Assembly: GCF_001697185.1 (NCBI RefSeq)
Contig: NZ_CP014224.1
Location: 2,046,001 to 2,110,000, forward strand
Source of the DNA: Wenyingzhuangia fucanilytica
Lineage (GTDB): Bacteria; Bacteroidota; Bacteroidia; Flavobacteriales; Flavobacteriaceae
Direction of reading: 5' to 3'
DNA length: 64,000 nt
The notes beneath the pieces were generated by a model. That model worked only from the letters and a program-made list of their open reading frames with translations. It searched no databases and was not told the DNA's origin. Below, in pieces: positions 7,268 to 25,695 of this stretch. The position numbers and the translations under genes are program-made. Positions within the stretch are counted from its first letter, which is position 1. Every line of letters begins with the position of its first letter.

Positions 7268-9406
7268 TTATAATTGTGGTTCAATATTATCTTTCGTTAG
7301 TTTTTTAATAAATACATTATTTCTATTTTTTGCTCTCTCAAGAAGCGTAGAATATTTCACAACTTCTGTATAAAGTGAACCGTCCTTTCCTTCGTTGCTA
7401 TAAATTCCAGCTATAGTTTTAGATGGCCTAAATAAATAATCAAAATTATAGGCGTTTTTGAAATCAGCATCATAAGCTCTAACATCATTTGGTTCAATTT
7501 TTTCTCCAATTAGATATCCATAAAAAGTAGTTAGTTTCATTTCTGGAATTGAAAAATTTCTCAAAAGAGTTGCGTAATTATTTATTTGATTTAAGTGGTC
7601 AGAAACACTAACGTCAGGGTTTTTAAATTCAATAATTATACATTTCTCTTCTTGTGGAAATAATAGAATATCAGGTCTTTTATGAAGCCTGTTTTCTCCA
7701 ATAGAAGTTATAAATTGAGTTTCTTCTTCAGATAAATCTTCTCTAATTATATTTTCTCCTTTAAATTTGATATCAGATAACTTGGACTCTGAAATCCCTT
7801 GAAAATATATAAAATCTTCATTTATAATCCACAAATCACTTTTATCAGGTGTTGTTGCGTTTTGTTGAAAAATTAGATTATGTAGTAATGCTTCATCTTT
7901 ATTTCTTGAACCATCATTTTGAATTGATAATTTTCTGTTTAAAATTAAAGAGAATAATTCAAGAATAAGTTTTCTTCTAGCAATATAATGTGTTAAATCA
8001 GCTTTATTTTGTTGTGGAATTACTTTAGCTATTCTTTCAATTTCAGCATCTAGTGTATCTGAATAATTTTCAGAAGTGGTATCTAGATGATTTAGTCTTT
8101 CAATACTACTTTTTAAATTCGAATCTAAATCAGCTTTTTTTCTTGCTTCTGCAGTGTAAAATTTTTCTAATATTTTTTTATCACTATCATTTATAGAAAT
8201 TTCAATTTCTGAATCTTCCGGCAATAAAAACATTTCCTTAAGATTTTTAATGTCTAACTGATGTTTTTCTTGAATTTTTTCTATTTGTGGATATAAATTA
8301 TTGATTGTACCATTTATTTTCGTTTCTAGAAGATCTAGAATTATAACTTCTTCATTAAATATGTTTGGATCATTTGAAAAAATATCATTGTTAGGAATAT
8401 CTATTTCTCCTCTTTCATTTGTGTCTTTGTCATCTAAATAATCACTAGAAACTAAAAAAAGAAAATGACTATTATCAATTACTTCATCTTTAGAAAGAGA
8501 AGATAAATTGACTTCAAAGTTTTCTACTACTTCGTGTTTACTTGTTAGTTTTAAATCATTTTGCTTTAAAAATGATTTATCTAATTTGTATGAGTTTATT
8601 GTAAATGTTTCAAATTTTTCAGTTTCAATGATGCTTTTTGCATCATCAGATAATTTTGAATAATGAACTTTTACATTATCTGTTTTGTCAATTTTTGGAA
8701 TGTCAGATTTTGATATTGTTGATTGACTTTCTTTATCGTTAAATACATAATGTTCTAAAATAATTTCTGGCAAATTATTTTTGTTTAAACAAAAGTATTG
8801 AATGTATCTTTTTAAAAGTGAGTCTTTTAAATTGACATCATTTAAAGTATGATATATATTTCTAGTTTGGTCTAAAAGTCCTTCGAAAGTGAGAGTTGTT
8901 CCAGAAGATTTTGCCTCAATTTCAATATCTTTTTTGTGAAAAATTATAGAGTTTTTTTTAAGATAATCTTCTTTTTTTGAAACATAAAATTCTCTTTTTC
9001 TATATTTTCCACTATTTAAATATATGCTCATTATTTTAGTAGAATCAAAATAATGAGTGTACTGTATTCTTCCAGAGCCAAGGTTTTTAAACCCTTTTGT
9101 AAAATCTTTATATGTATTGAATCTCTTAAATTCTTTATCATCAAAACCAACTCCGTTGTCACTTATTTGAAGTTTAGAAAAAGTAAAACTTTGGTCTGTA
9201 TTTTGAGTTGAATATATTTTTATTTCAATTTTTCCTTTGAAACCTTTGTTTATTTTTTCCTTTATTCGAATTGCTTCAAGTGAATTTGTAAATGCCTCAT
9301 AAACTGGTTGTAACGAAACTTTCGAGCGATTAACATCTCTTATTACTCCTTCATAATAAACTCCATCTCCACTTATGTGTGTGTTATTTTCAAATTTCAT
9401 TTTCAA
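7268..9406 (-). CDS. GHKL (HSP90-like) ATPase with C-terminal PD-(D/E)XK nuclease-like domain
   Basis: Large two-part protein, probably a stand-alone defence or DNA-processing enzyme. The N-terminal part carries the GHKL ATP-binding elements: N-box Glu37 and Asn41 in YEAFTNSLEAI, G1 box ISDNGVGFDD (Asp83, Gly85, Gly87), a glycine turn NLGSGR near 110, and SSGTTLTFEG near 170. A charged, coiled-coil-like middle (about 350-470) follows. Near the C-terminus, RPDILLFPQEEK and IIIEFKNP (about 576-597) form the D...ExK signature of PD-(D/E)XK nucleases, with a preceding helix DEALLHNLIF. No signal peptide or membrane span. It stands alone between inverted repeats, transcribed opposite to the SRAP gene. 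The restricted substrate or trigger cannot be inferred. Confidence 0.8.
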   Translation of the reverse strand: MKMKFENNTHISGDGVYYEGVIRDVNRSKVSLQPVYEAFTNSLEAIRIKEKINKGFKGKIEIKIYSTQNTDQSFTFSKLQISDNGVGFDDKEFKRFNTYKDFTKGFKNLGSGRIQYTHYFDSTKIMSIYLNSGKYRKREFYVSKKEDYLKKNSIIFHKKDIEIEAKSSGTTLTFEGLLDQTRNIYHTLNDVNLKDSLLKRYIQYFCLNKNNLPEIILEHYVFNDKESQSTISKSDIPKIDKTDNVKVHYSKLSDDAKSIIETEKFETFTINSYKLDKSFLKQNDLKLTSKHEVVENFEVNLSSLSKDEVIDNSHFLFLVSSDYLDDKDTNERGEIDIPNNDIFSNDPNIFNEEVIILDLLETKINGTINNLYPQIEKIQEKHQLDIKNLKEMFLLPEDSEIEISINDSDKKILEKFYTAEARKKADLDSNLKSSIERLNHLDTTSENYSDTLDAEIERIAKVIPQQNKADLTHYIARRKLILELFSLILNRKLSIQNDGSRNKDEALLHNLIFQQNATTPDKSDLWIINEDFIYFQGISESKLSDIKFKGENIIREDLSEEETQFITSIGENRLHKRPDILLFPQEEKCIIIEFKNPDVSVSDHLNQINNYATLLRNFSIPEMKLTTFYGYLIGEKIEPNDVRAYDADFKNAYNFDYLFRPSKTIAGIYSNEGKDGSLYTEVVKYSTLLERAKNRNNVFIKKLTKDNIEPQL

Positions 9407-23743: not shown

Positions 23744-24055
23744 ATGTACAAACTCTTTACTTACGGTACATTACAAGATGAAACTGTGCAACAAATGCTT
23801 TTTAATAAAAAAATAAAAGGTATTCCCGATTCAATTATTGGGTTTGATAAAAAAGAAATAAATCTAGAAGGAAATATTTACCCAATACTAATCAAAAACC
23901 AAAAATCATTAGAAAAAATAAAAGGAACATGTTACAATTTATCTGAATCTGACATTCTTATTTGTGATGAATACGAGGGATGTGAATACAAAAGAATTAC
24001 AACTAAATTAACCTCTGGAATTAAAGCTTGGGTTTATATCTCTTCCAAAGAATAA
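23744..24055 (+). CDS. Gamma-glutamylcyclotransferase-like (GGCT/AIG2) protein
   Basis: Small 103-residue member of the GGCT/AIG2 fold. The opening MYKLFTYGTLQDE contains the YGTL substrate-binding loop near residue 7, and CDEYEGCEY near 75 carries the acidic residue expected for catalysis. The exact substrate (gamma-glutamyl amine or peptide) cannot be told. It is followed after only 14 bp by the first 21-bp-periodic repeat of the small RNA locus. Confidence 0.88.
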   Translation: MYKLFTYGTLQDETVQQMLFNKKIKGIPDSIIGFDKKEINLEGNIYPILIKNQKSLEKIKGTCYNLSESDILICDEYEGCEYKRITTKLTSGIKAWVYISSKE

Positions 24056-24068
24056 AACACACAAAAAC

Positions 24069-24122
24069 ACCGTTAAACGATAAAAAACACCCATTCAACG
24101 ACACAAAACAACCATTCACCGA
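24069..24122 (+). promoter_or_regulatory. Three direct repeats with 21-bp period (LytTR-type sites) upstream of small RNA A
   Basis: ACCGTTAAACGA (24069), CCCATTCAACGA (24090) and ACCATTCACCGA (24111) start exactly 21 bp apart. Nine-base direct repeats separated by 12 bp are the known geometry of LytTR-domain response regulators (AgrA, ComE, AlgR type), and the ACCGTT core fits. The third repeat begins 41 bp before the -7 element, suitable for an activator at the -33 region. No LytTR gene is in this window. Confidence 0.7.
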
Positions 24123-24151
24123 AAAACAAGAAGCATAAAACACAATAGATG

Positions 24152-24159
24152 TACATTTG
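24152..24159 (+). promoter_or_regulatory. -7 element of small RNA A
   Basis: TACATTTG matches TAnnTTTG exactly, six bases before the conserved RNA 5' block. No strong -33 TTG is present, consistent with activator dependence. Confidence 0.6.
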
Positions 24160-24164
24160 AAATA

Positions 24165-24335
24165 CAACAACTTTTTCATAGCAATCGCTTTATATTTTGA
24201 GATATATAAAGAGAGAAAAGGGTTTAGTTGAAACATAGCAACAAATTCTTCAACTAAACAAACAGTTACTTAACTGTAACAAAAACTCAAATGTATTACA
24301 TACATTAAGCCTCAGATTTTTCTGAGGCTTTTTTT
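24165..24335 (+). ncRNA. Putative structured small RNA A of a tandem pair
   Basis: No reading frame, but clear RNA architecture of about 170 nt. The 5' block CAACAACTTTTTCATAGC (24165-24182) is identical in RNA B. Hairpin 1 has arms CTTTATAT/ATATAAAG (24188-24195, 24204-24211). Hairpin 2 has arms GTTTAGTTG/CAACTAAAC (24222-24230, 24251-24259), with a 20-nt loop that carries a second CATAGCAAC. A short ACAGTTA/TAACTGT hairpin and an intrinsic terminator (24307-24335) follow. Hairpins 1 and 2 differ from RNA B by paired substitutions, which argues for a conserved fold. I know of no named family with this form. Confidence 0.7.
24307..24335 (+). terminator. Intrinsic terminator of small RNA A
   Basis: AAGCCTCAGA (24307-24316) pairs with TCTGAGGCTT (24321-24330) around TTTT and runs into T7, a textbook intrinsic terminator. 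Confidence 0.9.
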
Positions 24336-24380
24336 ATCCCTAAAACTTTTAACCTAAATTCAACTAAACCTAAAAAAAAC

Positions 24381-24413
24381 ACCATTCATCGACATTAATC
24401 AACCAATGAACGA
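24381..24413 (+). promoter_or_regulatory. Two direct repeats with 21-bp period upstream of small RNA B
   Basis: ACCATTCATCGA (24381) and ACCAATGAACGA (24402) start 21 bp apart and match the repeats at 24069-24122. The second begins 42 bp before the -7 element, against 41 bp in unit A. A very degenerate third site may lie at 24360. Confidence 0.65.
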
Positions 24414-24443
24414 ATACATTAAAATAAAACTTAACAACAGTCG

Positions 24444-24451
24444 TAATTTAG
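24444..24451 (+). promoter_or_regulatory. -7 element of small RNA B
   Basis: TAATTTAG matches TAnnTTTG in all but one fixed base and sits at the same place relative to the 21-bp repeats and the RNA 5' block as in unit A. Confidence 0.5.
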
Positions 24452-24454
24452 CAG

Positions 24455-24597
24455 CAACAACTTTTTCATAGCGATACTTCTAAGTAGGTTTGAATATTTA
24501 GAAGATTAATGTTTAGTTATTCTCATAGCAAACAATTACTTAACTAAACAAACTATTTCAAACGCAAAAGCCCTTTACTTTCGTAAAGGGCTTTTAA
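24455..24597 (+). ncRNA. Putative structured small RNA B of a tandem pair
   Basis: About 140 nt. It opens with the same 18-nt block as RNA A (24455-24472). Hairpin 1 is CTTCTAA/TTAGAAG (24477-24483, 24498-24504), same place but different bases from RNA A. Hairpin 2 is GTTTAGTTA/TAACTAAAC (24511-24519, 24541-24549), where the last pair is A-T instead of G-C, and its loop again carries CATAGCAAAC. It ends in a terminator at 24566-24595. It lacks the third small hairpin of RNA A. The pair looks like an old tandem duplication. Confidence 0.7.
24566..24597. terminator. Terminator of small RNA B, shared with prfA
   Basis: AAAAGCCCTTTAC (24566-24578) pairs with GTAAAGGGCTTTT (24583-24595). T-runs exist in both directions, so it can also end the leftward prfA transcript, whose stop is about 20 bp away. 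Confidence 0.85.
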
Positions 24598-24615
24598 ATT
24601 TATATATTATGAGAA

Positions 24616-25695
24616 TTAAATATTTGCTTCTCCTAATTCTTTTAACTTTTCGGTATTCTCAGTCAACTTTAATTCATCAATAATTTTATGGATATCACCA
24701 TCAATAATTTTTGACAAATCATATAGCGTTAAACCAATTCTATGTTCAGTTACACGACCTTGTGGATAGTTATAGGTTCTAATCTTTGCTGATCTATCTC
24801 CAGAACTTACCATTGTTTTTCTTTGAGCAGCATCAGCTTCTAATTTTTTTGCCAATTCCATTTCATAAATACGAGAACGCAACACCTTCATGGCCTTATC
24901 CTTATTCTTATGCTGAGATTTTTGATCCTGACATTGTGCTACAATTCCTGTAGGAATGTGAGTTAAACGTACGGCTGAATACGTAGTGTTTACCGATTGC
25001 CCCCCAGGTCCTGAAGAACAGAAATAATCTACACGTACATCTGCATTGTTAATTTGCACATCAAACTCTTCTGCTTCTGGTAAAACCATTACAGTTGCTG
25101 CCGAAGTATGTACACGTCCTTGTGTTTCAGTTTGTGGCACACGTTGTACACGGTGTACTCCAGACTCAAACTTTAAGTCTCCATAAACATCATCACCAGT
25201 TACACTAAAAATAACTTCTTTAAATCCTCCTGAAGTTCCTTCAGCTATATCTTCAACCTCTGTTTTCCAACCTCTAGAGGCTGCATACTTAGTATACATT
25301 CTGTACAAATCTCCTGCAAAAATACTTGCTTCATCACCACCCGTACCTGCTCTAATTTCTACAATAACATTTTTAGCATCTTCTGGATCCTTTGGAATCA
25401 ACATAAATTTTATTTCCTCTTCTAACTGAGGAATTCTTTCAGTTCCTTCTTCCAACTCCATTTTTGCCATCTCTACCATTTCAGCATCAGACCCATCGGC
25501 TATAATTTCTTTGGCTTCAGTTATATTAGAAAGTAAATTTTCATATTCATTTCCTTTCTCTACGACTTTACTTAAGTCTTTATATTCTTTATTAAGTTTA
25601 GCGTAACGTTTTTGATCAGAAATAATATCTGGTTGAATAATCAAATCTGACACTTCATCAAAACGTTGCTTAACAATTCTTAACTTTTCTAACAT
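24616..25695 (-). CDS. prfA: Peptide chain release factor 1
   Basis: Reads UAA and UAG stop codons and triggers peptide release on the ribosome. The catalytic GGQ loop is in [14 protein letters not shown] near residue 232. Flanking RF signatures are [22 protein letters not shown] and [18 protein letters not shown]. Full length at 359 residues, start [15 protein letters not shown] at 25695. A TAATTTTG -7 element read leftward lies at 25716-25723, about 20 bp before the ATG. Confidence 0.96.

Follow-up and report, generated by a model that had tools for sequence, protein, structure and literature searches.

What do the two adjoining units at positions 24069-24597 of this Wenyingzhuangia fucanilytica DNA encode, and what might their products do? 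An earlier note on the window (the whole stretch of 64,000 nucleotides that was analysed) had taken them for a tandem pair of homologous, structured small RNA genes with no known family. Both units lie on the plus strand. In each, 21-bp-period repeats and a -7 box precede an 18-nt start block, which is followed by two hairpins and a terminator. The features, with the two neighboring genes, are as follows.

23744-24055, plus strand: GGACT (AIG2-like) gene (Pfam PF06094), which adjoins unit A also in W. marina and W. gilva
24071-24122, plus strand: three putative LytTR-type half-sites of unit A with a 21-bp period (scores 7, 9 and 9 of 9)
24152-24159, plus strand: unit A -7 box TACATTTG (exact TAnnTTTG)
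24163-24336, plus strand: unit A small RNA with inferred start (orthologues L066 and L067)
24165-24185, plus strand: unit A 5' block CAACAACTTTTTCATAGCAAT, which holds the shared word
24185-24214, plus strand: unit A hairpin 1 (from the fold)
24222-24259, plus strand: unit A hairpin 2 (from the fold), with CATAGCAA in its loop (24234-24241)
about 24307-24336, plus strand: unit A intrinsic terminator (terminator search)
24383-24413, plus strand: two putative LytTR-type half-sites of unit B, 21 bp apart (scores 9 and 7 of 9)
24444-24451, plus strand: unit B -7 box TAATTTAG (one base off TAnnTTTG)
24453-24596, plus strand: unit B small RNA with inferred start (orthologues L068 and L069)
24455-24472, plus strand: unit B 5' block CAACAACTTTTTCATAGC (repeat finder)
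24477-24504, plus strand: unit B hairpin 1 (from the fold)
24511-24549, plus strand: unit B hairpin 2 (from the fold), with CATAGCAA in its loop (24524-24531)
about 24566-24596, plus strand: unit B intrinsic terminator (terminator search)
24616-25695, minus strand: peptide chain release factor 1 gene (Pfam PF03462/PF00472), which adjoins unit B also in W. marina and W. gilva

Structure and conservation of units A and B

Direct reading and a repeat finder place the 18-nt block CAACAACTTTTTCATAGC in both unit A (24165-24182) and unit B (24455-24472), and both units hold their parts in the common order that the earlier note had described. The hairpin-2 arms that it had listed are also seen in both units. 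Its report of a repeated loop stands, with CATAGCAA in both hairpin-2 loops, and is extended by a second occurrence in unit A, inside the 5' block (24177), where unit B has CATAGCGA. None of 200 shuffles folded as well as unit A or unit B (z -8.15 and -6.44, respectively), and the two unit terminators, placed by the search at 24307-24330 and 24566-24595, are two of three terminator-like sites found, against 0.2 expected. The flavobacterial sigma-A consensus is described as TAnnTTTG (PMC9723704). A 12-nt perfect inverted repeat (24221-24232 and 24359-24370; GGTTTAGTTGAA/TTCAACTAAACC) joins unit A hairpin 2 to the spacer before unit B.

A BLAST search of 99 genomes with the whole region gave matches longer than 200 bases outside the own genome in G001 and G003 (W. 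marina and W. gilva) only; the remaining weak matches listed are short and often have a terminator-like position. Plasmid records contained no match to 24060-24600. All six orthologous copies, two from each of the three species, keep ACTTTTTCATAGC, two hairpins and a terminator, although the 18-nt block is not fully kept in the unit B copies of W. marina and W. gilva. Among pairs 1 to 9 of hairpin 2, three are changed on both sides (A-T/G-C, T-A/A-T and G-C/A-T) and a single cell, in W. marina unit A, is unpaired. Homologues with conserved stems, which the earlier note had proposed to look for, are thus present in two related genomes, and the paired changes and the fold scores bear out its view of a selected structure. 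In W. marina and W. gilva, unit A follows the GGACT gene and unit B lies beside the release factor 1 gene, on different contigs. Homology and structure therefore hold for all three species, whereas the tandem arrangement is found only in the species of the window.

G002 and G006 carry another RNA-like stretch between an exonuclease gene and the release factor gene; here CATAGCAA occurs twice, once unpaired and once for the most part within the terminator loop. In G004 the GGACT and release factor genes have only a terminator between them, and G005 is rearranged there; CATAGC was not found in the release-factor or GGACT loci of either genome.

A word shared with a compact RNA of Flavobacteriaceae

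The 5' block of the units contains CUUUUUCAUAGC, a short word that reappears, usually as UUUUUCAUAGCAAUUUU, in a compact RNA described below. According to sequence and fold, the 5' end of each unit bears UUUUUCAUAGC(A/G)A, and CAUAGCAA recurs in the hairpin-2 loop. In the fold of unit A, CUUUUUC of the 5' block pairs with downstream GAGAAAAG, so that the word is partly paired; in unit B it is unpaired except for its last bases. Beyond the two units, CTTTTTCATAGC recurs at conserved noncoding sites in Wenyingzhuangia. Searches for TTTTTCATAGCAANTTT with at most one mismatch returned 150 matches versus 44 for the reversed control in 37 Flavobacteriaceae genomes, and 28 versus 21 in 23 genomes of other families. 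We inspected 52 word sites in 50 loci, which had been picked mostly as exact matches. By eye, 43 of these sites are hairpin-word-terminator RNAs, and the remaining nine are antisense to gene starts or within coding sequence. A similar noncoding stretch, with CTTTTTCATAGCA after a U-tailed hairpin, is seen in L178 (about 760-870, G000), L181 and L185 and is possibly another RNA.

The compact RNA, of about 75 nt, consists of a hairpin, the unpaired word and a terminator, and is spread across Flavobacteriaceae. A covariance search gave 49 matches, of which four with E values of 0.12-0.73 were dropped. We aligned 39 copies, 36 of them distinct, in which 99.0% of 626 cells are paired and 16 of 18 pairs show changes on both sides. 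Covariation is 0.726, versus 0.09-0.17 (at most 0.168) with partners slid, in an alignment fitted to the covariance model, which favours structure. This alignment (A8) draws on 34 of 49 sources and leaves out the second-locus copies L219, L220, L222, L237 and L238, plus L223. Because the copies were first found by the word, its invariance among them stems partly from selection. Of 395 genomes in the order, at least 45 have a match to the model (CM R2), and 44 of these 45 are Flavobacteriaceae; the count is a lower bound, as scoring was limited to 12 candidates in each genome under strict filters. Copies number up to eight (G263) and seven (G131), dispersed in the genome, and stand in tandem in G008, G009, G022, G031 and G146. 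In 38 of the 44 copies examined, the 70 nt upstream of the word include a loose -7 pattern (TAnnTTTG/A). As the unpaired center of a compact, multicopy RNA, the word is probably the working part.

One compact CAUAGC RNA (L175:1475-1546; G000:C1 about 1034629-1034700), with a -7 box and terminator, has RNase P RNA on one side and, by eye, a DnaJ-like gene on the other; a compact RNA is likewise followed by RNase P elsewhere in Wenyingzhuangia (several genomes) and in G031. A second Wenyingzhuangia copy (L220:1477-1547; also L219, L222, L237, L238, L189 and L173) is preceded by an HD-type gene (by eye) and followed by a convergent gene. It is without a -7 box, and in some genomes TTGTAAG...CGAC is visible by eye, which by comparison with the consensus is a possible ECF-type promoter. 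In G263 and G131 (L311, L318), a compact copy is preceded by TTGGCAT...ATGC, unlike most other copies; this may be a sigma-54-type promoter, again by eye against the consensus.

Neither RNA type falls into a known family at the gathering cut-offs of Rfam release 15 (4227 families). Scanning the window with cmscan yielded tRNA only and nothing at the units. In a permissive scan of 24000-24660, the best score was 26.2 bits versus a cut-off of 55, and the csRNA model (RF02379) reached 22.3 bits versus 57 on the units' region. Ten compact-RNA loci gave nothing except RNase P, in three loci, and the best permissive score for one compact RNA was 15.5 bits versus 44. Text searches of the literature for TTTTTCATAGCA returned unrelated papers only, and no multicopy Flavobacteriaceae sRNA or Wenyingzhuangia small RNA was found. 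Units A and B are real, structured RNA genes, uncatalogued as judged by these Rfam and literature searches. The statement that they belong to no known family holds for Rfam; the companion statement, that no named RNA has such a layout, needs the amendment that their word is shared with a multicopy RNA found across Flavobacteriaceae.

LytTR-type repeats and an H-NOX/FIST locus

LytTR sites are direct repeats of about 21-bp period. FIST proteins can sense nitric oxide (NO). The sites of AgrA are likewise described as direct repeats. We searched for the repeat pattern of the units (CATTCANCGA, period 21, up to three mismatches) and obtained seven matches in the own genome versus two for the control. 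Three are at the units, and the other four lie within 17 kb (2.855-2.872 Mb). Two of these four are upstream of an operon at 2.866-2.872 Mb, on opposite strands, and one each is upstream of a flippase gene and a glycosyltransferase gene. By Pfam, the operon encodes a response regulator, H-NOX (PF07700), a PAS kinase, FIST (PF08495/PF10442), a kinase, Hpt (below cut-off) and a LytTR response regulator, one of four LytTR genes in the genome. The predicted sites upstream of the units, direct repeats about two helical turns apart, are thus common to the own operon of a LytTR regulator, whose gene content includes H-NOX and FIST. The repeats look like LytTR response-regulator sites, and the units are probably switched on by a pathway with likely NO sensors.

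The distribution of matches in related genomes was also surveyed. In G000, G001 and G003, 17 of 18 pattern matches fall outside open frames of at least 200 codons, and two half-sites that precede the W. marina and W. gilva copies of unit A fit the pattern perfectly. In G002, G004, G005 and G006, six of seven matches are inside such frames; the exception lies at the release factor RNA in G006. The operon is preceded by half-sites with a spacing of 21 or 22 bp in G001, G003, G004 and G005 as well, yet G004 and G005, with operon and half-sites, are the genomes whose release-factor and GGACT loci gave no CATAGC. G002 and G006 have the related RNA at the release factor gene; the neighborhood of their LytTR orthologue has only Hpt, and no sites were found near that orthologue.

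A second genus offers a further, less regular case. G008 has an orthologue of the regulator (64% identity) in an operon for a response regulator, H-NOX, a histidine kinase, Hpt and LytTR, with three half-sites 21 bp apart upstream; FIST was not seen in this operon. The same genome carries at least three compact RNAs in tandem, each preceded by half-sites, which are spaced by 21 bp before the first and third and by 24 bp before the second. Since chance alone gives about 1.2 half-sites scoring 6 or more in every 130 nt of a single strand (estimated in the window), no single one of the weaker sites in G008, G004 and G005 carries much weight, and the link between LytTR and RNA in G008 is suggestive rather than proof. 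The array-bearing genomes G009, G022 and G031 have no close regulator (at most 39% identity).

Sites of this kind are also seen at protein-coding genes. At L031:1509-1540 (G008), half-sites 21 bp apart are followed by a TAATTTAG box and a 70-aa ORF, possibly a protein-coding member of the regulon. Two further pattern matches in G001 (L102, L106) lie upstream of genes with signal-peptide-like starts, so that the regulon may include secreted proteins.

Candidate function and known counterparts

On balance, and with moderate confidence drawn from sequence comparison, we read units A and B as LytTR-activated genes for trans-acting sRNAs whose word would pair with mRNA start regions and block translation. 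A LytTR regulator, most likely that of the H-NOX/FIST/Hpt locus at 2.866-2.872 Mb, would bind the 21-bp direct repeats and activate each unit from its own -7 promoter. Each RNA would expose the word at its 5' end and in the hairpin-2 loop and stop at the intrinsic terminator. The RNAs could then pair with start regions, perhaps mostly of mRNAs for secreted proteins beginning MKK, while extra copies with other promoters might let several signals feed one common set of mRNAs.

The complement of the word, AAAAUUGCUAUGAAAAA, is a start codon in an A-rich context; the word itself is an anti-AUG with U-rich flanks. Bacteroidetes mRNAs are described as having no classical Shine-Dalgarno sequences and favoring A before the start (PMC7366714), which makes pairing with mRNA starts probable. 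By analogy with the start-region action of FopS/GibS, csRNAs and LhrC (below), an antisense block of translation would be the likeliest outcome. The idea originated with an exact 18-mer present in 33 stretches of genome contigs, two of them Wenyingzhuangia unit A. Ten of the other 31, from Bacteroidota/Balneolales, were inspected by eye, and seven are antisense to a gene start. The fit of the word to start codons is weak: in 92 kb, the starts of 66 ORFs with a length of 150 aa or more score 5.70 of 15, versus 4.57 for any ATG, yet 62 of 1,000 scrambled words do equally well.

Individual complementary starts were also noted. In G002, a small signal-peptide-like gene just after the LytTR regulator begins GCTATGAAAAAGTTGTT (L275:9094-9110), which complements the window's 5' block exactly over 17 nt, with one change in G006 (L274, reverse strand, 8715-8731). 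A lipoprotein-like gene in G001 (L156:1501), whose start TCGCTATGAAAAAGTT is for the most part complementary to a 5' block of the unit B type, is a candidate target.

Alternatively, the word might bind an RRM- or Hfq-type protein, which the RNAs would titrate as CsrB/RsmX do CsrA/RsmA. We regard such a decoy as possible but on the unlikely side. Near-perfect complements of the word (GCTATGAAAAAGT, at most one mismatch) are not enriched in G000, G001 and G003 (53, units included, versus 50 for the control), which speaks against pairing with mRNAs and in favor of a decoy. The word is also rigid, in part by selection, and is exposed repeatedly per molecule, in the 5' block and hairpin loop of A and B and in the unpaired stretch and most of the terminator loop in G002 and G006. 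Each compact RNA, however, exposes one word and would make a poor sponge, and U-rich flanks around an anti-AUG suit pairing equally.

It is rather unlikely that units A and B acquired the word by chance or convergence and form a separate, LytTR-linked family unrelated to the compact RNA. Their architecture does differ: the compact-RNA model (CM R1, hairpin-word-terminator) had no match in the window at E values up to 1 and only a partial one in W. gilva unit A (24 bits, E 0.12), so kinship rests on the word while the layout is not shared. W. gilva unit A, however, contains the full 17-nt word TTTTTCATAGCAATTTT exactly. LytTR-like half-sites also precede compact-type RNAs in G008, so that the two RNA types may be linked by a regulator besides the word. 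We read A and B as apparent relatives that have the active part in common but lie outside the compact family.

A non-regulatory role, either as promoter-terminator cassettes or as leaders and terminators insulating the neighboring genes, would explain the strong terminators of the compact copies and the position of some between convergent genes or upstream of rnpB. This is improbable, given that most copies have their own promoters, that they are both dispersed and tandem, and that the word is fixed and unpaired while the stems vary freely. A small secreted protein (MKKLL...) on the minus strand, with 7-residue repeats derived from the 21-bp repeats, is very improbable: a 71-aa ORF does overlap unit A, but promoter and terminator are on the plus strand, and the ORF was rejected because only 8-21 codons run from the ATG in unit B and the W. 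marina and W. gilva copies.

To our knowledge, few trans-acting sRNAs have been studied in Bacteroidota. If the antisense reading of the units is correct, Flavobacteriaceae would gain a testable post-transcriptional hub with a defined signal, built on a covarying multicopy RNA and its LytTR-linked relatives. Tentatively, one anti-start word would be issued from many copies under different promoters, so that signals including NO (through H-NOX/FIST-Hpt-LytTR) might converge on mRNAs for surface and secreted proteins, with A and B as the NO-pathway copies carrying two exposed words each.

Paralogous, two-component-controlled sRNAs with an exposed common motif are already known as a kind; judged by our Rfam and literature searches, the present family appears to be new, as does its likely NO-linked LytTR control. 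The compact layout of hairpin, unpaired word and terminator resembles that of csRNAs, LhrC and FopS. The csRNAs of streptococci are described (PMC3091779) as several paralogous sRNAs under one two-component system, CiaRH, with two stem-loops, an unpaired region between them and CAU as a potential anti-AUG in 53 of 61. They belong to another phylum, and their unpaired regions add an anti-Shine-Dalgarno part where the Flavobacteriaceae RNAs have U-rich flanks; the window units, with a Flavobacteriaceae host and LytTR-type sites instead of CiaR control, are not csRNAs. LhrC of Listeria (PMC4132741) is likewise multicopy and two-component-controlled (LisRK), but its described motif is UCCC, it binds lapB over the Shine-Dalgarno sequence, and its sequence is unrelated to the window units. 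Rfp18 of Flavobacterium psychrophilum (PMC9723704), compared here by its description, is a structured, genus-conserved Flavobacteriaceae sRNA that affects protease mRNAs and has its pairing region in the third stem-loop. FopS and GibS of Bacteroides (PMC11697453, PMC7366714), also compared by description, come from Bacteroidaceae, and the accounts compared make no mention of LytTR control. They share the phylum of the window units, and FopS is described as a family of 14 paralogues that have a single-stranded seed at the 5' end together with a terminator and that bind close to the start codons of susC-like mRNAs.
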